Assembly: GCA_034190875.2 (NCBI GenBank) | Contig: CM067357.1 | Span: forward strand, 17,100,807 to 17,164,806 | From: Urechis unicinctus | Lineage: Eukaryota > Annelida > Polychaeta > Xenopneusta > Urechidae | Direction: 5' to 3' | Length of the DNA stretch: 64,000 nt | Shown: positions 415-58,060 of the stretch, in pieces | Position numbering within the stretch: position 1 is the first letter of the stretch | Layout of the letters: each line of letters opens with the position of its first letter | Made by a program: the position numbers and the translations under genes | The notes under the pieces: model-generated | The model's input: only the letters and a program-made list of their open reading frames with translations | Told to the model about the DNA's origin: nothing | Database searches by the model: none

Positions 415-1473
415 ATGTCTATGTGTAACAGGAAAATTCTAGCTGACGGAAACCAATACATCGGAATGGAAGACGTTAAAGCAGTCATAAAACTGGAGAA
501 CCCTGAAACTATCTGTGATGTATATTCTTGCATGCAAGGTGAACTTGACTCGGACAAATTTGCTTTGCTCCAGAATTATAAAAAGGAGAGCATTGATTGT
601 GACACCTCGGACGAGTCATCGTCCATTGACATTTCTTCTAATGGTCGCCATGAACTGGGAGCCGCTGTCATCGCTTTCAGTCGATCTGGGGCTTTTGATA
701 ACCATGTTGTGAATCATAAGTCGTTCGCTCGTGGAAGCAATATCAAAAGGCATAAAAGAACGCACACTGGTGAAAAACCTTACAAATGTGACTCTTGTGG
801 AAAGTCGTTTGCTAAAAGAAGTCATGTGACGCAACATATGAGAACGCATACTGATGAAAAACCATATCAATGTGACACTTGTGGAAAGTCGTTTGCTCAT
901 GTAAGTAATCTGACAGGGCACATGAGAACGCATACTGGTGAAAGACCTTATAAATGTGACACTTGTGGAAAGCCGTTTGCTCGTGGAAATGATCTAACCA
1001 GGCATATGACAACGCATGCTGTTGAAAATCCTTATAAATGTGACACTTGTGGAAAGACGTTTGCTTTTGGAAGTAATCTAACCAGGCATATGAGAACGCA
1101 TGCTGGTGACAATCCTTACAAATGTGACACTTGTGGAAAGTCGTTTGCTCATGGATGTTATCTAACAAGGCATATGACAACGCATACTGGTGAAAAACCT
1201 TTTAAATGTGACACTTGTGGAAAGTCGTTTGCTGATGCAAGTGATCGAACAAAGCATATGAGAACGCATACTGGTGAAAAACCTTACCAATGTGACACTT
1301 GTGGAAAGACGTTTGCTCGTGGAAGTCATCTGACACAACATATGCAAAAGCATACTGGTGAAAAACCTTACAAATGTGACACTTGTTTGAAGTCCTTTTA
1401 TAGTGGAAGTCATCTGACACAACATATGAGAACGCATACTGGTGAAAAACCTTACAAATGTGCCACTTGTTGA
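415..1473 (+). CDS. C2H2 zinc-finger protein (ZNF1), C-terminus decaying
   Basis: Encodes up to 352 residues. Residues about 9-60 carry a segment shared with ZNF2 (LADGxxY, KAVIK, SDK, LLQxYK, TSD). A degenerate finger follows, then eight complete C2H2 fingers with TGEKPYKC-type linkers. The protein stops inside a ninth finger after CATC. Zinc-finger-like coding continues past the stop to about 1,610 but is interrupted again, so the array once had more fingers. Family knowledge suggests a nuclear DNA-binding regulator; the target is unknown. A splice acceptor ends at 431 and matches the one in front of ZNF2. However, an exon starting at 432 is not in the phase used by ZNF2, whose ATG lies just after its acceptor. 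ZNF1 lacks that ATG, so the upstream ATGs at 415 or 421 would have to be used, or the start is lost. It may be a dying paralog. Confidence 0.8.
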   Translation: MSMCNRKILADGNQYIGMEDVKAVIKLENPETICDVYSCMQGELDSDKFALLQNYKKESIDCDTSDESSSIDISSNGRHELGAAVIAFSRSGAFDNHVVNHKSFARGSNIKRHKRTHTGEKPYKCDSCGKSFAKRSHVTQHMRTHTDEKPYQCDTCGKSFAHVSNLTGHMRTHTGERPYKCDTCGKPFARGNDLTRHMTTHAVENPYKCDTCGKTFAFGSNLTRHMRTHAGDNPYKCDTCGKSFAHGCYLTRHMTTHTGEKPFKCDTCGKSFADASDRTKHMRTHTGEKPYQCDTCGKTFARGSHLTQHMQKHTGEKPYKCDTCLKSFYSGSHLTQHMRTHTGEKPYKCATC

Positions 1474-6149: not shown

Positions 6150-7780
6150 TTACGGCCAACGCTGAAGAGCGCGTTGTATGCGTTGTAAACGAACGATGAT
6201 CTTGTCAAAGAATCGATGAGCCTCGAACCCAGATACAGTGTTGGTATCATTGCCACGCCTCCTGTAGTGGTGAAGATATCCAAGCTCTCTTTCTAGTTGG
6301 CATTTATCCACATATTTTCGGGTTTTTATGTATTTTGGTTGAACGAGGCGTCCTACATTATGTATTTCACAACCTTGTATTGCTCTTGGTTGAATGATAT
6401 ATTTATAGCGGCATGATCTACTTGCGTGTTCGGTATATAACAAAGAAAGTGGCCGCAGCCTAGTGACTGTGGTATTACTTGCTATTACAGGATTTGGTGG
6501 GAGGTCTAAGTTAAAAATAAATGAGTCAAGTCTTATCGCCGCATAATGTCGGCAAGTGCTTGCCTCAATCATATCTAGTATTGTATTATGTTTGCTTGGA
6601 AATAATAATTCATCCAAGTCTACAAGTATTAAGTATTTGGTTCGATACATGTACCTTTGGACGCAATCTTGAATGACCGTAAACTGACCATGATAGTGAA
6701 TCTTGCGCACATCAGCAGGTCTCCAGAAAGAAGCTATATCCACAACTCCTTGTTTTACATAATGTTCCACAACAGGTCGAAGAGCCGAACTTCCAGTGGA
6801 ATTGTACAGGGCTATTTTTGTTGCACCCAGCATCATATAAACTTCCACAAATTCGATTAACTGATAGGAATTAGAATAATTTGAATGAATAGGCGAGTGA
6901 ACACAGACACTGATGTTGTGCTGAAGTGGATCCGCTACCTTTGTGTTTTCTAATCTTAGAGCGTAGCTTATGGTGCTGCAGTTGTTTAAATCTTCTTGTT
7001 TGATAAATGTAACATAATCAGGAGTTGACCTGCTCCATTTAGATGTTTCGCATATAAAATAGCTATCAACGCAGCCTCTGGAATATGGAAGCAAAAGATT
7101 AAATGTCAAAAATGTTGAATGAATGACTGGACAATTACATGTCAATATTGAAATAGAGAACGCAAATTGATTTGCCATCCCGTATCTCATGATCGAGCAA
7201 AGTGGCAAAGAACGATGGCCTCTCAAATAATACACATATATAAATTCATTGTGATGATCACGCTGTACCATTATGACTACAGGGATGTAACATATACTCA
7301 CGGTCTGCTGCGGTGGGAAGAGATTTGGGTTGCTCTTACAATTTTACAGTGTTTCGTGCCATACCACAGTATACACGTAATGTTACAGTGATCTCGGAAT
7401 CCGATGACCCTAACTAATTCTTTGCCTTTTATGCGAGCATCATAATATGCTGAATAAACATACGCTTTACCGCATATTGGAATAAACGTTTTCCGGTTCT
7501 CGTATATTCTTGCCTCTCCAAGGCTACCATGTGGGCATAGTGGGATGGATGCAGAGATATTCCGGTGCTCAACCGGTGGTGCGATGAATAATTTCTTGGC
7601 TAATTTGCAACGTTGCACAGCTGATATATTATGGTTAAGGAGCTGTTTCTCCAACACAAAATTGTTCAGGATGCCCGCACTTGTATTAACCACACGGGCA
7701 GGTGCATTATGCAGCTTGCTTAAAATCATTTCTATAAATCGTATAGCTGGATCACTTGTATTTTGCATCTGTGCTTCCAT
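6150..7780 (-). CDS. GT92-family (DUF23) glycosyltransferase, two exons
   Basis: Exon 1 runs 7,780 to 7,302 and exon 2 runs 7,077 to 6,150. The intron of 224 bases has a GTGAGT donor and a TTCCAG acceptor, and the phases match (phase 2, rebuilding a Pro codon). The spliced product is about 468 residues. Exon 2 holds the GT92 signature: SVCVHSP, LIEFVEVYMMLGATKIALYN, the block IHYHGQFTVIQDC, and the metal-binding acidic motif LVDLDELLFP. By family knowledge GT92 enzymes are Golgi type II membrane proteins that add hexoses, for example galactose onto fucose in the nematode GALT-1 case; the acceptor here is unknown. No membrane anchor is visible in exon 1. A stop lies a few codons upstream of the first ATG, just before a possible acceptor (TTTCACCAG), so an anchor-coding exon further upstream is plausible. 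Several N-glycosylation sequons are present. The gene looks intact. Confidence 0.85.
7078..7301 (-). other. Intron of the GT92 gene
   Basis: GT at 7,301-7,300 and AG at 7,079-7,078 on the minus strand. The intron sequence is open in one frame, which hides the splice if only open frames are read, but the glycosyltransferase match resumes exactly after the acceptor. Confidence 0.75.
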
Positions 7781-10529: not shown

Positions 10530-10878
10530 ACCTCTGTGACTGATGACAGAAGTGGGGGAAACCTGCTCTCCGTTGGTATCGGTAGAGAATGGGATTCTGA
10601 CGGTTGGGTGGTCCTTGCAAACGCCATAGCAGCAACACACCACTTAGGCATAGACGAGAGACTTAAATGGCCTGGTCCACTTTATAGGCGACACCTATGA
10701 TAATCGTTTACATTGGTTATTTCCATCCGCGTGTACTTTCCTATTTGTTCCATTTATCCTAGAAGGCGGCTGTTCAATAAGGTCAATAATATTCACCCCA
10801 TCTTTTCTAGGCGCCATATAACACATTGTTGTTGGCGTACCATTAAACCCTATACTTACCATACTTACCTAGGCAAGT
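10530..10878 (+). mobile_element. Old copy of the short LINE-derived element (plus orientation)
   Basis: The order of landmarks matches the 16.3-kb copy read on its minus strand. A head piece contains AACCTG, GTTGG, GGTGGTCCTTGCA and CAACACACCACTT. Next come GACGAGAGACTTAAATGGCC and CCATTTATCCTAGAAGGCGG. The tail is GCCATATAACACATTG, ACCATTAAACCCTATACTTA and CTTACC repeats ending near 10,878. Many substitutions make this the most diverged copy in the window and the only one in plus orientation. It has no coding capacity. Confidence 0.75.
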
Positions 10879-16329: not shown

Positions 16330-16344
16330 CGGACGCTTATTGGT
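16330..16344. repeat. Target-site duplication, left copy
   Basis: CGGACGCTTATTGGT is identical to 16,726-16,740 and brackets the short element exactly. Confidence 0.9.
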
Positions 16345-16725
16345 AAGGTAAGGTAAGCATAGGGTTTAACGGCACACCAACACTCATGTGTCATATGGTG
16401 CCAAGAAAGGTTAATAGATAAGATTGACCTGATTAAGCAGCCGCCTTCTAGGAAAAATGGAAATGGAAAAGGATATAAATGGAAACGATTATCCTAGGGC
16501 AAATCACCACAAGCCGATTCCAGCCTCTCGTCTAGGCGAAACCCGGGCCAGAGTGGTATGTTGCAGATATGGCCCTCAAAAGGACCACTCCACTCAACCA
16601 CATGGATCCCATTGTCCACCGACACGAGTCGCAACCCACGGCCAACAGGTTGCCCCTATAAGTCGCCTCTTACGACATGCAGGAGGATACAGTGGATTTA
16701 TTCTACCCTCGGACCCACAGGGGGA
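16345..16725 (-). mobile_element. Short LINE-derived element (RIME/SIDE-like) with intact TSD
   Basis: 381 bp, read on the minus strand. It begins CCCCCTGTGGGTCC, runs through a 5' part that matches the 5' end of the LINE at 29.3-33.8 kb, and then switches to the LINE's last 55 or so bases (GGCACCATATGACACA, GTTGGTGTGCCGTTAAACCC). It ends in TTACC repeats. It has no coding capacity and no tRNA-like promoter that I can see. A perfect 15-bp target-site duplication surrounds it, so it moved by target-primed reverse transcription, presumably with the LINE's machinery. Among the copies here it looks youngest. Confidence 0.9.
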
Positions 16726-16740
16726 CGGACGCTTATTGGT
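16726..16740. repeat. Target-site duplication, right copy
   Basis: Perfect copy of 16,330-16,344. Confidence 0.9.
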
Positions 16741-20218: not shown

Positions 20219-20356
20219 TCAAAAGGACCGCACCCTTCAACCACTTGGATCCCGACACAAGTCGCAACCCACGGCCAACAGGTTGCCCCCTATTAGTCGC
20301 CTCATACGATATGGAGGAGGATACAGTGGGCCTATTCTACCCCCCGACCAACAGGG
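20219..20356 (-). mobile_element. Isolated 5' head of the LINE/short element
   Basis: On the minus strand it starts CCCCCTGTTGGTC and runs about 138 bases through GCGACTTGTGTCGGGA and GGTTGAAGGGTG, then stops. The usual 3' tail is missing, which is the reverse of normal LINE truncation. Confidence 0.8.
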
Positions 20357-20359
20357 GGA

Positions 20360-28780: not shown

Positions 28781-28862
28781 TTTCGTGTTGATGTGTTATA
28801 TGGCGCCTAGAAAGGTTAATATATAAGTTTGGCCTGATTAAGCAGCTGCCTTCTAGGATAAA
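28781..28862 (-). mobile_element. Interrupted piece of a short LINE-derived element
   Basis: Contains TGTTATATGGCGCC, GGCCTGATTAAGCAGCTGCC and TTCTAGGATAAATGG and is cut there by the next element's TTACC-type tail. This suggests one short element landed in another. Confidence 0.65.
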
Positions 28863-29168
28863 TGGTAAGGTAAGGTAAGGTAAGTATAGGGTTTAACGGC
28901 ACACCAACACTCATGTGTTATATGGTGCTAAGAAAAGTCAATAGATAAGATTGACCTGATTAAGCAGCCGCCTTCTAGGATAAACGAAAATGGAGATGGA
29001 AAAATGGAAACGATTATCCTAGGGCAGGTCACCACCAGCCAGTTGACTGGACCAGGCCATTCCAGCCTCTCGTCTAGGTGAAATCCGGGCCATAGTGGTG
29101 TGTTGCAGATATGGCCCTTGCAAGGACCACTCCGCTCAACCAGCTGGAACCCATTGTCCTCCGATGAT
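28863..29168 (-). mobile_element. Short LINE-derived element, 5'-truncated
   Basis: On the minus strand it keeps the middle (CACACCACTATGGCCC, GACGAGAGGCTGGAATGG) and the full 3' tail (GTGTGCCGTTAAACCCTATA, then four TTACC repeats). About 75 bases of the head are missing. Confidence 0.85.
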
Positions 29169-29464
29169 GAAGTCTACAAACAGCGGCTGACAGTAAACTG
29201 TACATCATTGTTAACCAACATGTCACATGTGGTAGACATTGTAGATATGCTACAGGAAGGTAAGGTAAGTATAGGGTTTAACGGCACACCAACACTATTG
29301 TGTTATATGGTGCCTACTTAAGGAGGGGTAAATGCGAGTACGAAAGGATAAGAAGGAGTCAAGGGTTAAAACTAACTAAACATTAAACCTATTAGTATTA
29401 ATTGAATTATATGAATTGAATTATATTAATTTGAACTATATTAAATTAATGAGAATTGTATGAT

Positions 29465-32213
29465 CTAAAATCTATAAAAAATTTCTCTTATGAATCCAAG
29501 TGTCTTGGATGGATTCACCCTTTCAAACAATTCTGAAAGGGTTTGAACCCAGAAGAAGCGATTTCGGATAAAAATCAAATCAGCATATTCGATGAGAATG
29601 TGCTTGACGTTGTAGGTCCATTGACAAGGAATACATTGAGGGATGGGCTCGTCCCTTAGTAGAAAGGCACGAGTTGTATAGGTGTGTCCTATACGAGCGC
29701 GAGCAAGAATTACCTCTTCTCTTCGGCTCTCTCTGCAGCTCTGTTGCCACTCCCCAAGTAAGGGCTGAATTTCGTGGAGTTTGTTTGGGATGGATTCATC
29801 CCACTGGTCCTGCCATTTCTGTTTAAAATTGGACGACTTGAGGTTTAAAGTCTGTAAAGGGGACTTTGACCTCAGTCACATTCATGTTGAGTGGTTCCTT
29901 GGCAGGTCTGTCTGCCCTCTCATTACCAGGGATACCAACATGGCTCGGTACCCATACGAACAAAATATCCTTGCCACGATCTGTCAATTGAGAATATAAA
30001 AGCACAATATTTAAAATAAAAACTTAACGGAAATTACTCCCTGTTATTGCCTCCAGGGCAGACAGGGAGTCTGAAAACACAACAAAACGACTTTTACCTG
30101 ACTGGGCAATAGGTCTCAGTGCAATAGAAAGAGCTTTAAGCTCGGCGTGGAAAATTGACAGTGGAGGTGGTAGCCTCATGTTAAAAACAGATTTCCCCAT
30201 AATGGCTGCAGCTCCAATTTTATTGTCTTCTTTCGAACCGTCTGTGTAAAGGGCAGAACGGTCCGAATATTTATCCTTTATCTCTCTAAATTGGTGAAGG
30301 AAAAAATCAGGCTCGTTAGATCCCTTCGTGTAAGTTGTCAGCGATTTATCCACTGTTGGGGTTTTCAATTGCCATGGGGGAGACCCTGGCACAGTCTCAA
30401 CCGCCACGGCATTCAAGTTAGAGCATGACCCATCCAGCGATTCTCTGATACGCAGACCGAACGAAGGGATAGTATTCGGCCTACTCTCATAAAAATGGAT
30501 ATTTCCAGGATTAAAAACAGCATCAAATGCAGGATTCTTGGGGTTGGACCTTATGCGTAAGGCATACTGAATGGCAAGCTGCTCCCTTCGAACCCCAAGT
30601 GGTGCCTCGTTGGCTTCCACATGTAGACTGGGAATGGGAGAGGTTCTGAAAGCCCCGAGGCAAAGCCTCAGAGCTTGGTTTTGGACAGTTTCCAATTTTC
30701 TTAGATATGAGCGACGGGCAGCACCATATATAAAAGAGCCATAGTCCAACTTGGAACGCACTAGTGACCGGTAAAGCCGTAAAAGGACTTTCCGGTCCGC
30801 TCCCCAATCAGTATTGGACAACATCTTTAAAAGATTGATTGCTTTAAAACATTTCTTACGCAGGTAAGAAATGTGAGCTTTAAAATTGAGCTTCCTGTCA
30901 GAAATTATTCCAAGAAACTTGGTTTCTTCCACCATAGGAATAACATTGCCATCAAGGGTGAGAACTGGGTCTGGATGGATATTTCTTTTGTTGCAAAAAT
31001 GCATACAGACAGTTTTTGATTTAGAGAATTTAAATCCGTTTTCATCCGCCCATTTTTGGATGTTATTGAGGCTAAGTTGAAGCTGCCTCTCAATTGTGCT
31101 CATATTTTTTGATTTAAAATAAATCAAAAAATCATCCACGTAGAGTGAACAATCCACACCTGGCTTGATGACATTAACTATACTATTAATTTTTATATTA
31201 AAAAGTGTAACGGATAAAATACTTCCCTGTGGGACCCCCATCTCTACTTTGTACAGGTTTTTGTTGGCCTCAGTGGGCCGCATTTTGAACCTGTACAGTG
31301 CCCGTTTGCGCTCTTTGACAGCGTCACGGCATGCATCAGAAAACCATGGTTTATATAGCCGTTTAGAATCCGTCGAGGATTTCGGTACATTTTGTGTGGC
31401 TATATTAATTATTGATTGCGTAAAAAAGGATACCGGATCTTCATCTATATTTTCTAAAGTTTCTTTGTTGATAATTTCCCTGCACATAGAAGTAAAATTC
31501 GGCCAGTTGGCCTTATGGAGTTTCCATTTGGATACCCGCTCAGCGGGCATAGGCCTATCAATGTTTAGAAATATTGGAAAGTGGTCACTTCCACATTGGT
31601 CCTGACCAACTTCCCAATCAAATTCCATCAAAAGGGATGGAGAGCAGAGGCTTAGGTCTATGGCAGAGAAAGATCCGGTTCCAGGATGGAGATAAGTTTG
31701 AGATTTTTTATTTAATATAGCAAGATCATTTTGTATGATGAAATTCTCTATTTTATGACCACTGTCGTTGGTGTCCTCACATCCCCATAAATCGCTGTGG
31801 GCAATGAAATCGCCAAGCAGCAAAAGTGGGGATGGAAGTTGACTGATCAAATGATCAATGTCTCTCTGTAAAATCTTGTAGCTGGGTGGTAGGTACAGAG
31901 AGCACAAAGTGATGGTTTTGTGGAGGGTAATACTAATGGCTATAGCCTGAAGAGGAGTGTCAAGAGGAATGGGTTCATGGGGGACACCGTGTTTAACAAG
32001 CACAGATGCCCCTCCCACAGCTCTTCCGTCTCTTTGTGATAAGGATGTTTTATTATACATGGTATACCCTCTCATTGACATTTGATCAGTCTCCTTCAAG
32101 AAAGTTTCCTGAAGGCAAACAGCAATAGGTTGATGGTCATACAGAAGAGATTTTAATTCATCATAGTTGGACCGAAATCCTCGACAGTTCCATTGGATGA
32201 TGCTAGGTGACAT
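29465..32213 (-). CDS. LINE ORF2: endonuclease, reverse transcriptase, RNase H
   Basis: From MSPSIIQWNCRGF (32,213): APE-like endonuclease with VCLQETFL, LLLGDFIAHSDLWG (Ile where the catalytic Asn of GDFNAH is usual), and SDHFPIF. The linker MRPTEANKNLYK is joined directly to EMGVPQGSILS, so the first reverse-transcriptase blocks are deleted in frame. The catalytic box reads YVDD. RNase H shows LYTDGSK, AELKALSIAL and FSDSLSAL, then one in-frame stop at about 30,024, then WVPSHVGIPGNERAD. The C-terminus carries RREEVILARARIGHT and the knuckle CIPCQWTYNVKHILIEC, ending at 29,465. The missing RT fingers and the altered Asn make it inactive. Confidence 0.85.
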
Positions 32214-33227
32214 TGGGGGGATTGGTTGAAGCCCGAGGCTTCCGCCTTGGGCTGTTAGGGGCAGATGTGGGTTTAGAGGGAAGACGGACACTGTCAATGT
32301 CCATCTCCTTTAGGCTGCCGTATTTATTATGCAATTTTATGGGATCCTTAGATCCCTTAGGAGGTCTATGATTATGAGTTTTTACTTTAGTTATTACTGT
32401 TTCATTTTTTTTACTAGTCTCAGCGGGTTTTTTGTAAACAGTAGGATGGACAGGAGGACTGCACTGCGTTGACATATCTTTTGTCTTCTTGGTAGTAGTA
32501 GCAGGGTTTTTGGCACATCAATGGTCACCATTTTTGGCTGGGCGCTGCCATTTGGCATATCTTCCTTATGGTCCTCCTGTCCACACTTCGCACATGCTGC
32601 AGTTCTTTTGCAGGTTGAATTACCATGGCCGTAACGTTGGCACTTGAAGCAGCGCAAGGGGTTTGGGATGTAGGGGTCCACGGAGACATTCAAGTATCCG
32701 ACCTTGACAGCTTTAGGCAATTCAGAGCTGTCAAAGGTCAGGATAACCGTCCCCGTGGCTTGTCGAGTCCCATTGCGGTTCACTGTGATTTTTTTGGCAT
32801 CGATTACCCTTTGTGGTTGTAATTCCTTAATTATTTCAGAGACCTCACATTCTTTTAAGTCGTAGCATCGAATTACTCCTCTTTTGGTGTTGAGGGTTCG
32901 GTGAGGGGTGACTTGAATGGGAATGCCCGCGAGAAGTACTGATTTCAGTAGGCAACTCGCGTGGCTGGGTCGATGATCAACTTCAACAAGCAAGCTGCCA
33001 GACTGTATTTTCCTAATGTTTTTGGCGACACCAGCCAACCCCTCAATCCCTTTACTAATTGCAAAAGGACTTAGAGATGTCAAGGGTCTCTCTGGATTAG
33101 AAGAAGTTAAAACCAAGAATCTTGGCCATGAGGAGCAAAGATCTTTGTCCGAGTCAGAGTCCGTGTCCGTTTCATTGGGTCTAGTCCGTTTAGAAGATAA
33201 TCTTTCTTGAGTTTGTTTTTGAGCCAT
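32203..33227 (-). CDS. LINE ORF1 protein (zinc knuckle), internally deleted
   Basis: Starts at ATG 33,227 (MAQKQTQERLSSKRTRPNE). An acidic DTDSDSDKD stretch follows, then a nucleic-acid-binding region (PHRTLNTKRGVIRC, TGTVILTFDSSELPK). After that come knuckles CFKCQRYGHGNSTC and CAKCGQEDHKE. Compared with the copy at 28.0-28.4 kb, the rest of the second knuckle, the third knuckle and about 60 residues are missing after DHKE. A frame change near 32,430 separates this from the tail ending SPRRKPRASTNPPNVT. The ORF1 stop overlaps the ORF2 start in ATGTCACCTAG (32,213-32,203), hinting at coupled or re-initiated translation. Confidence 0.75.
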
Positions 33228-33774
33228 GATATTATGATAAAATTTCTTCACTGGTGCTCCCCACCCACCATGGAGCCCAACATGGGGGCGTCAGCGGCGT
33301 GCGGCTCAACCAGCACACATGACGCCAGGGATACACCAGTGCAATACTCAAATCAAATAGCAAACAGCTCAAAGAGCTGTTCACACATCAACTCAATTGA
33401 CCTGTTAAGCAGTCGCCAGGGATAAATGAAAAAGAAAAGGGAAAAAAACCATGTGGATAAGAACGAATGACAAGAAGTGGAATGAAAAAGCAAAAAGTAA
33501 TGAAAACAAATATCCCATGGCATGTCACCACAAGCCGATTGACTGGACCAGGCCATTCCAGCCTTTCGTCTAGGTGAAATCCGGGCCAAAGTGGTGTGTT
33601 GCAGATATAGCCCTCGCAAGGACCGCTCCACTCAACCACCAGGATCCCATCTTCCACCAACACGAGTCGCAAACCCACGGCCAACAGGTTGCCCCCTATT
33701 AGTCGCCTCTTACGACATGCAGGAGGATACAGTGGGCCTATTCTACCCCCGGACCCACAGGGGGCAGCTAGTAT

Positions 33775-34070: not shown

Positions 34071-34405
34071 GTAAGTGTAGGTAAGGTAAATATAGGGTTT
34101 AACGGCACACCAACACTAGTGTGTTATATAGTGCCTACTAAGATGAGGAAAATATGAATCGGAAAGGATTAGAACAAATCAACATTAAAACAAACTAAAA
34201 CCATTAGTATTAATTGAATTGTATTAAATAAATGTGAGTTGTATCATCTTAAGTCTGTCATATAGTCCAATTTATCTGATGAAATCTAGTATCTTGGATG
34301 GATTCACCCTCTCAAACAATTCTGAAAAAGTTTGGACCCGGAAGAAGCGATTTCGGATAAGAATCACATCAGCACATTCAATGAGAATGTGCTTGACATT
34401 GCATC
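34071..34405 (-). mobile_element. 5'-truncated LINE piece inside unit 1
   Basis: Matches the ORF2 end and 3' UTR of the LINE, including CAGAATTGTTTGAGAGGGTG and GTGTGCCGTTAAACCC. It is more diverged from the 29-kb copy than the 24.9-kb copy is. Confidence 0.8.
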
Positions 34406-34750
34406 ACTGATGGTCCAGTTCACAAAGATGTCGTACATTATTGTTGAATGTTGACATATCTCTTTATTGGTGGTATGTCTATCAGGTGACATAGCTCACG
34501 CTAAATCCCTAGAACGATTTAATGTTATCCTGTAAGGTTGACTCGCACACTTTTTAGTCGGCCATGTTAGTCACTTTATGTCTGTAAATCATGTTACACT
34601 TAATTTACTTGTTGAAATGTTTGAATGTAATCGTGATGTGTATGATAGAATTTGCCCAGTTATTAGATGGAACTAATTGAGCCACAAGGCTGTCACAAGA
34701 TTGGACCAATGTAGCCACAATGCTGTTAGCAAAAATTGCCTACGTGTAAC

Positions 34751-34794
34751 CACAAGGAACAGATTTGTAGAATCAGCGTTCTCCGGCTGACAGC
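34751..34794 (+). pseudogene. PAN exon relic in unit 1
   Basis: Encodes HKEQICRISVLRLTA, close to DKEQTCRISYLRLTS in exon 1 of the PAN-lectin gene. The match ends where the short element begins. It is a fragment of a lost paralog. Confidence 0.6.
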
Positions 34795-34795
34795 A

Positions 34796-34919
34796 AGGTA
34801 AGTAGAGGGTTTAACGGCACACTAACACTTATGTGTTATACGGTACCTTGAAAGGTGAATAGATCTAGGATAAATGGTAAAAAGAGGGAATTATAAAGAT
34901 GAAAATGCAAACGATTATC
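34796..34919 (-). mobile_element. 3' part of a short LINE-derived element (cut by duplication)
   Basis: Carries GTGTGCCGTTAAACCCTCTA and TTTATCCTAGATC and ends abruptly at the tandem-duplication junction. Confidence 0.8.
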
Positions 34920-35159
34920 GCTGTGTGACTGTGTGAAACTGATCCGCCGTCACACACGTTCTTCCTCAAACATCATGGAGATCGACGTTTGTCTTAACGA
35001 AAGTCTATCATGCAAGTCAATAGTTACGATGTGCTGCAGTGACACCCTGTGTGTTGGGTGTGCTGAGAAGTATGGTTAAACGGATCATGAGTGGAGTGGG
35101 GGCGGGTAAGTGCAGCAAAGAGTCAGAATGCGCGGGTGAAACTGGTGTTGATGTGAAAG

Positions 35160-35494
35160 GTAAGTGTAGGTAAGGTAAATATAGGGTTTAACGGCACACC
35201 AACACTAGTGTGTTATATAGTGCCTACTAAGATGGGGAAAATATGAACCGGAAAGGAGCAGAACAAATCAACATTAAAACAAACTAAAACCATTAGTATT
35301 AATTGAATTGTATTAAATTAATGTGAGTTGTATCATCTAAAGTCTGTCATACAGTCCAATTTATCTGATGAAATCTAGTATCTTGGATGGATTCACCCTC
35401 TCAAACAATTCTGAAAAGGTTTGGACCAGGAAGAAGCGATTTCGGATAAGAATCACATCAGCACATTCAATGAGAATGTGCTTGACGTTATATC
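35160..35494 (-). mobile_element. 5'-truncated LINE piece inside unit 2
   Basis: Duplicate of the 34,071-34,405 piece; it was copied with the tandem duplication and is not an independent insertion. Confidence 0.8.
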
Positions 35495-35835
35495 ACTGAT
35501 GGTCCAGTTCACAAAGATGTCGTACATTATTGTTGAATGTTGACATATCTCTATATTGGTGGTATGTCTATCAGGTGACATAGCTCACGCTAACTCCCTA
35601 GAACGATTTAATGTTATCCTGTAAGGTTGACTCGCACCCTTTTTAGTCGGCCATGTTAGTCACTTTATGTCTGTAAATCATGTTACACTTAATTTACTTG
35701 TTGAAATGTTTGAATGTAATCGTGATGTGTATGATAGAATTCGCCCAGTTATTAGATGGAACTAATTAAGCCACAAGGTTGTCACAAGATTGGACCAATG
35801 TAGCCACAATGCTGTTAGCAAAAATGGCCTACGTG

Positions 35836-35883
35836 TAATCACAAGGAACAGATTTGTAGAATCAGCGTTCTCCGGCTGACAGC
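35836..35883 (+). pseudogene. PAN exon relic in unit 2
   Basis: Same KEQICRISVLRLTA coding relic as at 34,751, copied by the tandem duplication. Confidence 0.6.
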
Positions 35884-35885
35884 AA

Positions 35886-36294
35886 GGTAAGTAGAGGGTT
35901 TAACGGCACACTAACACTTATGTGTTATACGGTGCCTTGAAAGGTGAATAGATCTAGGATAAATGGTAAAAAGAGAAAATTAAAAAGATGAAAATGCAAA
36001 CGATTATCATGGGGCAAGTTACCAGGTGATGAAAATAATAATCCCAAGGCATGACTCCACCAGTCGATTGACTGGACCAGGACATTCCAGCCGCTCGTCT
36101 AGGTGAAATCCGCACCTTAACGGTGTGTTGCAGATATGGCCCTTTCAAAGGACCTCACCACTAAATAACCAAGATCCTACTGTCCACCGACACGAGTCGC
36201 AACCCACGGCCAACAGGTTGCCCACTATTAGTCGCCTCTCATGACATACAGGAGGATACAGCGGGCCTTTTCTACCCCAGGCCCACGGGGAGAT
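35886..36294 (-). mobile_element. Short LINE-derived element, full length
   Basis: About 409 bp from a CTCCCCGTGGGCC head at 36,294 to GTGTGCCGTTAAACCCTCTA plus TTACC at 35,886. Extra internal bases around 36,005-36,050 (GATGAAAATAATAATCCC) make it slightly longer than the 16.3-kb copy. No target-site duplication is evident. Confidence 0.85.
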
Positions 36295-45489: not shown

Positions 45490-45821
45490 AAGTGAGTGAG
45501 TGAGTTTAACGGCACACAAACATGTATGTGTTAATAGATAACTTTGACCTGATTAAGCAGCCGCCTTCTAGGATAAAATGGAAAAAAGAGGGATATAAAA
45601 GTGGATGATGAAAAAGATAAAAATGCAAATAGTATTCTAGGATATGTAACCACCAGACGATTAACTGAACCAGGCCATTCCAGCCTCTCGTATAAGCGAA
45701 ATCCGGGCCTAAGTGGTGTATTGCAGATATGGCCCTCAAAAGGACCACTCCGCTCAACCACCAGGAACCCACTGCCCACCGACATGAGTTGTAACCCATG
45801 GCCAACAGGTTGCCCCCTATA
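45490..45821 (-). mobile_element. Short LINE-derived element with a variant tail
   Basis: On the minus strand it contains AACCTGTTGGCCATGGGTTA, CACTTAGGCCCGGATTTC, CCAGGCCATT-type blocks and CAGGTCAAAGTTATCTATTA. It ends GTGTGCCGTTAAACTCACTC. The tail is ACTC repeats instead of TTACC. About 75 bases of the head are missing, and the usual GGCACCATAT is deleted, so it belongs to a distinct subfamily. Confidence 0.8.
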
Positions 45822-46788
45822 ATTCGAGGTTCTTGTAAATGTGTATTTATATGTATATATCATATATGTTAATAAATGGCCGGCAGCACACTCTTGCACA
45901 AAGCCAAATGTGAACACCTAATGTAGTATATTAATAATACCAAAAGAGTCAATCCGTTATTTTTCTCGGTAAATATTACCTCGCCAAAAAGTTAGGCGTT
46001 TTCCAAATGTTTATCTCTTCTAAGAGCCATTAGTGCGTAGCAGATTCCGCGTATAAACCACGATTTACAACCATAGGGCAGAGTATTGCTATGACGCTAT
46101 AGAAGGCATGATGCTGGGATGGAACGCCGCGTTTTTGAATAATCGTGGGCTGACTATCCCGAGAACGGGATCGTTTGTGCTAGTCCCGGCTCTCGGATGC
46201 TCATTTATCGCTCTTTATTGACTACATCAGACTACACGAATAATGAAGAAAGTGAAAATACTCCGACACAGCAAAACTTGGCAAATATATATATTGAGGA
46301 GTATTTTTATTTGATGTTACTACATTCAGAGGTCACTTAATCAACTTCAGCACTTCATCATGGAAGACTCCCGATGAGGTAAGTCGCATTTCTACTCTAG
46401 ACTCCAGTCAAGAAATAAAATCCTATGTTCCACGGCAATATGTCACACTGTGTTCCGCAAATATATTATGCTTTCGCAGAAAATTGCACCCTTTTTAGAA
46501 GTTAGCTCATAGGGAACAACAGCGACGTACAGCTCATCACAATCCGCCATAGAATAGTTTTTACTGATAACACGTTAAGAGATTACTTTACAATCTTAAA
46601 TATATATTTATGGCAGTTGTATAAAAATATTTTAATGTATTTTGCTACTCGTGTGTATCATTTAAAGCCATTCTGACTTTGTGAAGAAAACTAAAAATAT
46701 GCCTACAACCAAAGTTGCCTGACTCTTCCCTGACCACAATCTATGTCTGCCTTTAACCACAACTCAAATTAATAACTTGACTTATCTC

Positions 46789-54333: not shown

Positions 54334-57300
54334 AACCCTCATGCATGGAACCATGCATGGTTCTGAGGTAGTCGGGGTGCCACCACCTCAGAACCATGCA
54401 TGTTTGAAGCTGGTTCATTGCAGTAGCTAAGAACCATGGGTTTTGGGGTATTTGTAGCGGAATCCGCTACCATATCATGTTTTCCCATGGTTCTTAACTA
54501 CTGGAACCCTCATGCATGGAACCATGCATGGTTCTGAGGTAGTCGGGGTGCCACCACCTCAGAACCATGCATGTTTGGAAGCTGGTTCATTGCAGTAGCT
54601 AAGAACCATGGGTTTTTTGGGGTATTTGTAGCGGAATCCGCTACCATATCATGTTTTCCCATGGTTCTTAACTACTGGGAACCCTCATGCATGGAACCAT
54701 GCATGGTTCTGAGGTAGTCGGGGTGCCACCACCTCAGAACCATGCATGTTTGGAAGCTGGTTCATTGCAGTAGCTAAGAACCATGGGGTTTTGGGGTATT
54801 TGTAGCGGAATCCGCTACCATATCATGTTTTCCCATGGTTCTTAACTACTGGAACCCTCATGCATGGAACCATGCATGGTTCTGAGGTAGTCGGGGTGCC
54901 ACCACCTCAGAACCATGCATGTTTGGAAGCTGGTTCATTGCAGTAGCTAAGAACCATGGGTTTTGGGGTATTTGTAGCGGAATCCGCTACCATATCATGT
55001 TTTCCCATGGTTCTTAACTACTGGAACCCTCATGCATGGAACCATGCATGGTTCTGAGGTAGTCGGGGTGCCACCACCTCAGAACCATGCATGTTTGGAA
55101 GCTGTTCATTGCAGTAGCTAAGAACCATGGGTTTTGGGTATTTGTAGCGGAATCCGCTACCATATCATGTTTCCCATGGTTCTTAACTACTGGAACCCTC
55201 ATGCATGGAACCATGCATGGTTCTGAGGTAGTCGGGGTGCCACCACCTCAGAACCATGCATGTGTTGGAAAGCTGGTTCATTGCAGTAGCTAAGAACCAT
55301 GGTTTTGGGGTATTTGTAGCGGAATCCGCTACCATATCATGTTTTTCCCATGGTTCTTAACTACTGGAACCCTCATGCATGGAACCATGCATGGTTCTGA
55401 GGTAGTCGGGGTGCCACCACCTCAGAACCATGCATCAGAACCATGCATGTTTGGAAGCTGGGGTTCATTGCAGTAGCTACTGGAAACCATGCATGGTTTT
55501 GGGGTATTTGTAGCGGAATCCGCTACCGGAATCCGCTACCATATCATGTTTTCCCATGGTTCTTAACTACTGGAACCCTCATGCATGGAACCATGCATGG
55601 TTCTGAGGTAGTCGGGGTGCCACCACCTCAGAACCATGCATGTTTGGAAGCTGGTTCATTGCAGTAGCTAAGAACCATGGGGTTTTTGGGGGGTATTTGT
55701 AGCGGAATCCGCTACCATATCATGTTTTCCCATTCTTAACTACTGGAACCCTCATGCATGGAACCATGCATGGTTCTGAGGTAGTCGGGGTGCCACCACC
55801 TCAGAACCATGCATGCATTTTGAAAGCTGGTTCATTGCAGTAGCTAAGAACCATATTTGTAGCGGAATCCGCTACCATATCATGTTTTTCCCATGGTTCT
55901 TAACTACTGGAACCCTCATGCATGGAACCATGCATGGTTCTGAGGTAGTCGGGGTGCCACCACCTCAGAACCATGCATGTTTGGAAGCTGGTTCATTGCA
56001 GTAGCTAAGAACCATGGGGGTTTTGGGGGGGTATTTGTAGCGGAATCCGCTACCATATCATGTTTTCCCATGGTTCTTTACTTACTACTGGAAACCCTCA
56101 TGCATGGAACCATGCATGGTTCTGAGGTAGTCGGGGTGCCACCACCTCAGAACCATGCATGTTTTTGGAAGCTGGTTCATTGCAGTAGCTAAGAACCATG
56201 GGTTTTGGGGTATTTGTAGCGGAATCCGCTACCATATCATGTTTTCCCATGGTTCTTAACTACTGGAACCCTCATGCATGGAACCATGCATGGTTCTGAG
56301 GTAGTCGGGGTGCCACCACCTCAGAACCATGCATGTTTGGAAGCTGGTTCATTGCAGTAGCTAAGAACCATGGTTTTGGGGTATTTGTAGCGGAATCCGC
56401 TACCATATCATGTTTTCCCATGGTTCTTAACTACTGGAACCCTCATGCATGGAACCATGCATGGTTCTGAGGTAGTCGGGGTGCCACCACCTCAGAACCA
56501 TGCATGTTTGGAAGCTGGTTCATTGCAGTAGCTAAGAACCATGGGTTTTGGGGTATTTGTAGCGGAATCCGCTACCATATCATGTTTTTCCATGGTTCTT
56601 AACTACTGGAACCCTCATGCATGGAACCATGCATGGTTCTGAGGTAGTCGGGGGGTGCCACCACCTCAGAACCATGCATGTTTGGAAGCTGGTTCATTGC
56701 AGTAGCTAAGAACCATGGGTTTTGGGGTATTTGTAGCGGAATCCGCTACCATATCATGTTTTCCCATGGTTCTTAACTACTGGAACCCTCATGCATGGAA
56801 CCATGCATGGTTCTGAGGTAGTCGGGGTGCCACCACCTCAGAACCATGCATGTTTGGAAGCTGGTTCATTGCAGTAGCTAAGAACCATGGGTTTTGGGGT
56901 ATTTGTAGCGGAATCCGCTACCATATCATGTTTTCCCATGGTTCTTAACTACTGGAACCCTCATGCATGGAACCATGCATGGTTCTGAGGTAGTCGGGGT
57001 GCCACCACCTCAGAACCATGCATGTTTGGAAGCTGGTTCATTGCAGTAGCTAAGAACCATGGGTTTTGGGGTATTTGTAGCGGAATCCGCTACCATATCA
57101 TGTTTTCCCATGGTTCTTAACTACTGGAACCCTCATGCATGGAACCATGCATGGTTCTGAGGTAGTCGGGGTGCCACCACCTCAGAACCATGCATGTTTG
57201 GAAGCTGGTTCATTGCAGTAGCTAAGAACCATGGGTTTTGGGGTATTTGTAGCGGAATCCGCTACCATATCATGTTTTCCCATGGTTCTTAACTACTGGA

Positions 57301-58060
57301 ACCCTCATGCATGGAACCATGCATGGTTCTGAGGTAGTCGGGGTGCCACCACCTCAGAACCATGCATGTTTGAAGCTGGTTCATTGCAGTAGCTAAGAAC
57401 CATGGGTTTTTGGGGTATTTGTAGCGGAATCCGCTACCATATCATGTTTTCCCATGGTTCTTAACTACTGGAACCCTCATGCATGGAACCATGCATGGTT
57501 CTGAGGTAGTCGGGGTGCCACCACCTCAGAACCATGCATGTTTGGAAGCTGGTTCATTGCAGTAGCTAAGAACCATGGGTTTTGGGGTATTTGTAGCGGA
57601 ATCCGCTACCATATCATGTTTTCCCATGGTTCTTAACTACTGGAACCCTCATGCATGGAACCATGCATGGTTCTGAGGTAGTCGGGGTGCCACCACCTCA
57701 GAACCATGCATGTTTGAAAGCTGGTTCATTGCAGTAGCTAAAAACCATGGGTTTTGGGGTATTTGTAGCGGAATCCGCTACCATATCATGTTTTCCCATG
57801 GTTCTTAACTACTGGAACCCTCATGCATGGAACCATGCATGGTTCTGAGGTAGTCGGGGTGCCACCACCTCAGAACCATGCATGTTTGGAAGCTGGTTCA
57901 TTGCAGTAGCTAAAAACCATGGGTTTTGGGGTATTTGTAGCGGAATCCGCTACCATATCATGTTTTCCCATCGGGGTGCCACCACCTCAGAACCATGCAT
58001 GTTTGAAAGCTGGTTCATTGCAGTAGCTAAAAACCATGGGTTTTTGGGGTATTTGTAGCA
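54334..58060. repeat. 172-bp palindromic satellite, about 21-22 copies
   Basis: The consensus unit is 172 bases and begins GGAACCCTCATGCATGG. Each unit has an 18-bp inverted repeat (CATGCATGGTTCTGAGGT with ACCTCAGAACCATGCATG). A second pair, TAAGAACCATGGG with CCCATGGTTCTTA, encloses a third, TAGCGGA-A-TCCGCTA. Copies are very alike; most differences are in G or T run lengths, plus local duplications (for example near 55,430 and 55,520) and a shortened unit at about 57,970. No transposase or coding region is attached. Confidence 0.95.

Follow-up and report, generated by a model that had tools for sequence, protein, structure and literature searches.

A short element with both ends of LINEs of probable I type and one shared junction across the genome of Urechis unicinctus

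The DNA analysed here, referred to below as the window, is a 64,000-nucleotide stretch of the Urechis unicinctus genome (contig C16, positions 17100807-17164806). On its minus strand, at 16345..16725, lies a short element of 381 bp with 90.8% identity to the consensus of its TTACC-tail subfamily. Two exact 15-bp copies of CGGACGCTTATTGGT, the left at 16330..16344 and the right at 16726..16740, enclose exactly these 381 bp, and the perfect target-site duplication (TSD) named in the first-pass annotation was thereby recovered. Read on the minus strand, the element has one extra T followed by CCCCCTGTGGGTCCGAGGGTAG, and its end is GGCACC...GGTGTGCCGTTAAACCCTATGC(TTACC)n. Alignment of SIDE (short internally deleted element) and LINE sequences delimits a 5′ module of about 107 nt (16617..16724, minus strand), in which the window copy shows a few changes relative to the consensus. 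The whole part derived from a LINE 5′ UTR spans 16423..16724 (minus strand), and its sense-strand end, CAGGTCAAT, meets CTTATCTATTAACC at the deletion junction (16422..16423, minus strand). Folding gives a 3′ hairpin, GGCACC...GGTGTGCC, common to SIDE and LINE (16371..16402, minus strand), and the element closes with GTTAAACCCTATGC and the (TTACC)n tail (16345..16370, minus strand). Aligned with the LINE located in the same window, the 5′-derived part is 82% identical to the LINE 5′ end (284 bp) and the 3′ part 93% identical to the LINE 3′ end (58 bp), in agreement with the earlier description of about 300 bp of LINE 5′ end joined to a LINE 3′ end with a TTACC tail. In the SIDE consensus, about 325 nt of 5′ UTR are joined to about 65 nt of the LINE 3′ end, plus the tail. 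Both ends come from a LINE lineage and the middle is missing; judged by its sequence, the 381-bp element is a SIDE of a LINE of putative I type.

Eight SIDE copies or pieces were found in the window, their identity to a subfamily consensus ranging from 68 to 92%, with LINE fragments alongside, so that the earlier count of at least six copies, of different ages and in both orientations, was borne out. The main copy is matched to the consensus at 16356-16724 (minus strand). The one copy in the opposite orientation is old (10576..10856, plus strand, 68%), and all others lie on the minus strand: a 5′ fragment recognised by consensus comparison (20219..20358), a 5′-truncated copy (28883..29164, 91%) with a further fragment directly beside it (28791..28868), for which a nested insertion is likely, fragments at 34801..34919, an old copy further trimmed at the junction (35890..36290, 77%) and a copy of the TCAC2 type (45531..45826, 88%). 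The fragments at 34801..34919 are inside a duplication of about 1.09 kb shared with the region at 35.9 kb; within this direct duplication (34079-36293) lie the 3′ end of a LINE and an end of a SIDE. Elsewhere in the window we observed a C2H2 zinc finger array (415-1473, plus strand), an open frame with a match to glycosyltransferase family 92 (6150-7301, minus strand, E 1.2e-28) and a 172-bp unit repeated in tandem in about 21 copies with 94% matches (54334-57971).

The LINE carrying the ends of the SIDE in the window, a LINE-A copy (29264..33764, minus strand), has two internal gaps relative to another LINE-A copy, L089, one of them in the reverse transcriptase (RT) part of ORF2. Its ORF1 piece (32394..33251, minus strand) gave no Pfam match, and its ORF2 piece (30024..32297, minus strand) contains an APE endonuclease and a partial RT, with RNase H below its cut-off. 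L089 is about 5.67 kb long, has 5′ and 3′ ends as in the SIDE and is flanked by a TSD. An uninterrupted stretch of 1,024 aa in its ORF2 contains APE endonuclease and RT, and a frame break precedes the RNase H end; ORF1 again had no Pfam match. A second family, LINE-C (represented by L092, also with a TSD), has endonuclease and RT, with RNase H (4.4e-14) on a piece of its own, and 40 scored copies among the matches listed are 99-100% identical over 697-701 nt. The domains expected in ORF2 of the I superfamily (APE endonuclease, RT and RNase H) are represented, RNase H by L092, and their order fits the I-group identity proposed at first pass for the partner LINE; from this domain order we classify LINE-A and LINE-C as putative I-type elements. 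Four LINE-A 5′ ends lie on one strand about 3.2 kb apart at C16:12687990-12698156, in a local array of copies. LINE and SIDE 3′ ends, oriented on a single strand, are densely clustered at C2:5.09-5.71 Mb and 54.68-54.72 Mb. Contig C16 (59.5 Mb, 5% of the genome), on which the window lies, is over-represented in the top matches, with 22/40 of the full-length LINE-C, 16/40 of the LINE-A 5′ and 16/40 of the SIDE matches listed, figures that include some local duplicates and are no census. Possibly this contig represents a chromosome of sex type or one rich in repeats.

The genome (1.19 Gb in 926 contigs) was searched with a 31-nt junction pattern, allowing up to 2 mismatches. This gave 2,081 places (1,062 forward and 1,019 reverse), and the reversed control gave 0. 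For a sample independent of the junction we used the intact 22-mer just before it, which occurs 1,455 times genome-wide, and followed the sequence beyond it at the 40 places on contig C1 among the matches listed. At 31 of these it stays within 4 substitutions of the junction over 31 nt, 2 are LINE-C, and the remaining 7 (L145, L154, L155, L157, L162, L166, L168) show divergence or indels, and visual inspection served to assign them. No other joint follows the 22-mer at the 40 places. All 38 non-LINE continuations are the junction or a diverged form of it, although they are not all independent, because several share flanks. The single common junction by which the first-pass annotation proposed to recognise a propagating family is thus what the genome contains.

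To the 577 places genome-wide with the exact 26-nt 5′ end (control 0) both kinds of element contribute: the first 30 in contig order comprise 26 SIDEs, three of them interrupted by other sequence (L070, L071, L078), and 4 LINEs (L059, L085, L086, L088). TSDs were scored in 50 loci, from which 13 without a recognised 3′ end and 3 duplicates (L064, L020, L021) were removed; L019, with one flank, had been excluded beforehand. TSDs of at least 12 bp flank 15 of the 34 distinct SIDE insertions (one, L063, of low complexity) vs. 0 of 1,122 swapped flanks, and at a threshold of 8 bp the numbers are 18/34 vs. 11/1,122. In the other 16 of the 34 flanks an exact TSD of at least 8 bp is missing, and where found the TSD is mostly 12-15 bp long. 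Together with the 3′ tail, these TSDs are the marks of target-primed reverse transcription. The mean divergence from the consensus is 4.6% for the TTACC subfamily (n=18), 2.7% for TCAC1 (n=8) and 2.5% for TCAC2 (n=5), with consensuses built without L020, L021, L066, L067, L068 and L076. Among the TCAC1 copies, 6/8 are at 0.0-1.3% from their consensus and 5/8 within 1.0%. Seven of the eight, and most TCAC copies, were picked by their exact 5′ end, which biases towards young copies; the existence of copies so young nonetheless shows recent activity of the SIDE family.

As the same junction stands at independent flanks, it is the joined form that propagates, and the view of a self-maintaining, non-autonomous family using shared LINE ends gains support from both the junction and the TSD-flanked independent sites. 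The short element now occupies some two thousand places or more, which it probably reached by means of the copying enzyme of the LINE. Repeated internal deletions of the LINE, each independent and with no propagating family, could be read from the internal gaps in the window LINE and in some other copies, and from the few SIDE copies trimmed differently at the junction (window 35890-36290 and L067). One junction at 2,081 places, no other joint in 40 sampled and its recurrence at TSD-flanked independent sites speak against such an origin, which is already refuted as the main explanation because the junction is shared, and which we regard as exceedingly improbable. In favour of spread mainly by segmental or tandem duplication instead of retrotransposition, flanks are common to L060/L064, L018/L020/L021, L010/L013/L016, L070/L071 and L138/L139/L141, and six junctions stand about 1.65 kb apart at C2:61.27 Mb (C2:61269728-61278036, at intervals of about 1,655 bp), where the SIDE is apparently part of a tandem array. 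Yet removal of the duplicates still leaves the 34 distinct flanks, more than half of them with a TSD of at least 8 bp, and we consider duplication highly unlikely as the main route.

A conventional SINE, in which a small-RNA head took its tail from a LINE and the LINE 5′ end later acquired the SINE head, would also be abundant and short as this element is, and the LINE ends do look exchangeable. The tRNA- or 5S-derived head that would have contradicted the first-pass reading was searched for, and neither Rfam nor ARAGORN detected a tRNA, 5S or 7SL head: Rfam at gathering thresholds gave 0 matches in the window, ARAGORN gave 0 tRNAs, and Rfam at lax settings gave chance-level hits only (E 6.4 and 9.2, one overlapping the 5′ end; E 0.086 and 0.9 outside the elements). 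An A-box-like word at position 126, which would suit a SINE, matches 10/11 and is reached by 64/1,000 shuffles; the best B-box match is 8/11, reached by 493/1,000 shuffles and so not beyond chance. The tRNA/7SL/5S-type head with A and B boxes that marks a SINE was not detected, and the element resembles SIDEs in being without a Pol III-type head. Against a SINE origin stands also the homology of about 325 nt with the LINE 5′ UTR, up to CAGGTCAAT, in two LINE families, and we judge this origin very unlikely. No Rfam ribozyme model matched the 5′ end, a search for an HDV-like ribozyme in which the models may miss divergent ones, and this sets the element apart from the ribozyme-bearing SIDEs (R2 SIDE, RIME). 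Shuffled sequences fold as well as the 5′ 110 nt (z -0.60). A tRNA-like fold, with CCCCCT pairing to AGGGGG about 73 nt further on, was rejected as ARAGORN and Rfam were empty. An origin by splicing, considered as CAGGTCAAT and CTTTCTAG resemble splice sites, was rejected because both splice-site halves are retained.

The 5′ ends of SIDE and LINEs were compared column by column. Over the first 100 alignment columns the TTACC and TCAC2 consensuses, L089 (LINE-A) and L092 (LINE-C) are 100/100 identical, an identity that extends to about column 107, and the TCAC1 consensus agrees at 98/100. Past about 107 nt, the TTACC SIDE retains 100/110 (91%) and then 87/108 (81%) identity with L089, and 96/110 (87%) and then 78/112 (70%) with LINE-C. 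The last ~27 bases before the junction of the TTACC SIDE are nevertheless those of LINE-C, though LINE-C is otherwise more distant than LINE-A. From the earlier derivation of the element from the window LINE the shared ends remain, but a simple deletion of that very LINE does not agree with these ~27 bases; the deletion probably arose in an ancestor common to these LINEs.

Identity between the two LINE families is 97-100% for the first ~200 nt, mainly ~45-70% in mid-element and 86-100% over the last ~550 nt. We compared fourfold sites in those ORF2 codons of LINE-A and LINE-C that have the same first two bases. Agreement was 62/190 in the upstream ORF2 pieces (40/120, 19/43 and 3/27), where 491/898 residues are identical, 15/31 in the next pieces and 36/40 in the last 137 aligned codons. 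Because selection at the protein level is not expected to give such fourfold agreement, the 3′ end appears to have been swapped between the LINE families, and LINE-A and LINE-C are most likely mosaics. The pattern holds across the LINE-C family, as 40 LINE-C matches span the break. The identity of the 5′ end, which is non-coding, is compatible on the data here both with exchange and with a promoter under strong selection. Variation counts do not support the idea that the 5′ module is conserved because it is a mutational cold spot: across 28 LINE-A copies, changes are more frequent at positions 1-108 (82/3,021) than at positions 109-210 (11/2,854) and 211-330 (40/3,356), and across 16 SIDE copies the first of these segments is somewhat less variable than the other two (59/1,727 vs. 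82/1,587 and 92/1,760); L058 was excluded from these counts and one of 30 loci was not recognised. A 23-nt word of the 5′ module had 0 matches in IMG/VR.

At the 3′ side, exact ends of the TTACC type number 1,104 genome-wide and those of the TCAC type 266. Twenty TCAC ends, taken from the heads of the match lists on C1-C2 (minus six already seen as SIDE and two unseen, plus one each from C3 and C7), comprised 18 SIDEs, 0 recognised as LINE and 2 unassigned. Twenty TTACC ends from C1 only (minus two already fetched and two unseen) comprised 11 SIDEs, 2 LINEs and 7 unassigned, several of the latter too truncated to tell. The LINE-type 3′ end (GTAGGCACC context) followed by TTACC occurs 547 times genome-wide and followed by TCAC 0 times, a search that a LINE with another pre-hairpin context could escape; in the fetched loci, 16/16 LINE-context ends have TTAC(C) tails. 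The tail type goes with the hairpin loop: 50 distinct ends include 19 SIDEs with ATAC/TCAC as loop and tail, 10 LINEs with ACTA/TTACC, 6 SIDEs with ATGA/TTACC and 3 SIDEs with ACTA/TTACC. Exceptions to the rule are two SIDE ends with ATGA/TCAC, one end in L058 with an ATAC loop and a TTAC-type tail, and one diverged end of uncertain context in L054 with a CTCACTTACTC tail. The recent SIDE subfamily has the TCAC tail, without a matching LINE-type end in our search. A third tail type, (TTAAC)n, was seen in SIDE copies L138, L139 and L141, a local duplication at C1:12.714-12.718 Mb. The 3′ hairpin shows no more covariation than shuffled controls do (93.4% paired vs. 93.2%; one pair with a double change, reached by 257/500 shuffles), and its putative role therefore rests on conservation and precedent.

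We favour, with a probability of roughly 0.87, the reading that the SIDE is a non-autonomous retroelement copied by LINE machinery, which arose, most simply a single time, when an ancestor of this genome's putative I-type LINEs underwent an internal deletion or a template jump. The 5′ end of the SIDE would carry the LINE's own internal promoter, and a full-length SIDE RNA would start at or beside CCCCCTGTGGG. The enzyme encoded by LINE ORF2 would then recognise the 3′ hairpin and GTTAAACCCTA, and the RNA would be copied into new sites through target-primed reverse transcription. The slippage-type tail, (TTACC)n or (TCAC)n, and the TSDs are products fitting that mechanism. In this most likely scheme, transcription of the SIDE and its mobilisation by the protein of a partner LINE are putative. 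Tentatively, and at rather less than even odds, the LINE ends could be interchangeable parts moved by template switching, with the SIDE as both product and carrier; one SIDE lineage would have changed its 3′ end (mostly to the ATAC loop and TCAC tail) away from that of LINE-A and LINE-C, serving an unseen LINE or having evolved its own tail. The modules in this end-exchange reading are 5′ ~107-205 nt and, on the 3′ side, the last ~137 ORF2 codons with the 3′ UTR, in LINEs whose ORF2 proteins are ~55% identical.

SIDEs are already known as a class, and this family is a further one of them. In trypanosomatids, the short RIME/SIDER elements and the LINEs ingi and L1Tc share a 5′ hallmark of 77-79 nt that activates transcription. 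Compared by description only, this system differs from ours in belonging to a different kingdom and in its hallmark, which here is ~107 nt with no HDV-like ribozyme found; on the descriptions available, it is nevertheless this trypanosomatid system, RIME/SIDER with its 5′ hallmark, that comes nearest in logic. SINEs with a tRNA or 5S head and a LINE tail are generally known to have a borrowed LINE 3′ end, TSDs and a short repeat tail as here, but their head comes from a Pol III gene, whereas here it is the LINE 5′ UTR. To our knowledge, no SIDE of an animal I-type LINE is on record, and the open-access literature yielded no prior report of this element or of such a SIDE, Repbase and most subscription papers being outside that scope.

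The term SIDE, as the available text of PMC3414825 applies it to R2 and that of PMC6740152 to Persaeus, covers the element. The latter text describes SIDEs of non-LTR elements as rare, and reports 115,283 copies of Persaeus, whose CR1 partner in Lepidoptera is Zenon, in one butterfly. Abundance of a SIDE, which the first-pass annotation had thought notable in such a genome, therefore has an animal precedent. As described there, Persaeus is like our SIDE in its size of ~260-390 bp, its composition of LINE 5′ UTR and 3′ UTR without a Pol III head, its high copy number (in several species) and its activity contemporaneous with its LINE. It is unlike our SIDE in its CR1 partner, poly-A tail, variable break points, unrelated central region and supposed origins, thought to be at least four (PMC6740152); our family shows a single junction, tails of pentamers or tetramers, a LINE that has RNase H, and one 5′ module that two LINE families carry in identical form. 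By that account, Persaeus comes nearest to our SIDE in its size, its abundance and its occurrence in an animal. The R2 and R2/R1 hybrid SIDEs of Drosophila, in the available text of PMC3414825, likewise keep both LINE ends, include hybrids with mixed ends and use target-primed reverse transcription, but are site-specific to rDNA and carry an HDV-like ribozyme, for which no match was found here. The available text of a survey of mollusc transposable elements (PMC10294476) has no such element in it.

What goes beyond the routine in this family is the 5′ module identical across LINE families, the apparent exchange of 3′ ends and a tail class without a known LINE. The fourfold sites are evidence, at the level of sequence, that LINE families can swap ends. 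Very young LINE-C copies, recent SIDEs and at least two tail classes coexist in this genome, and the signals for promoter use and for recognition by the RT are therefore testable by comparison.
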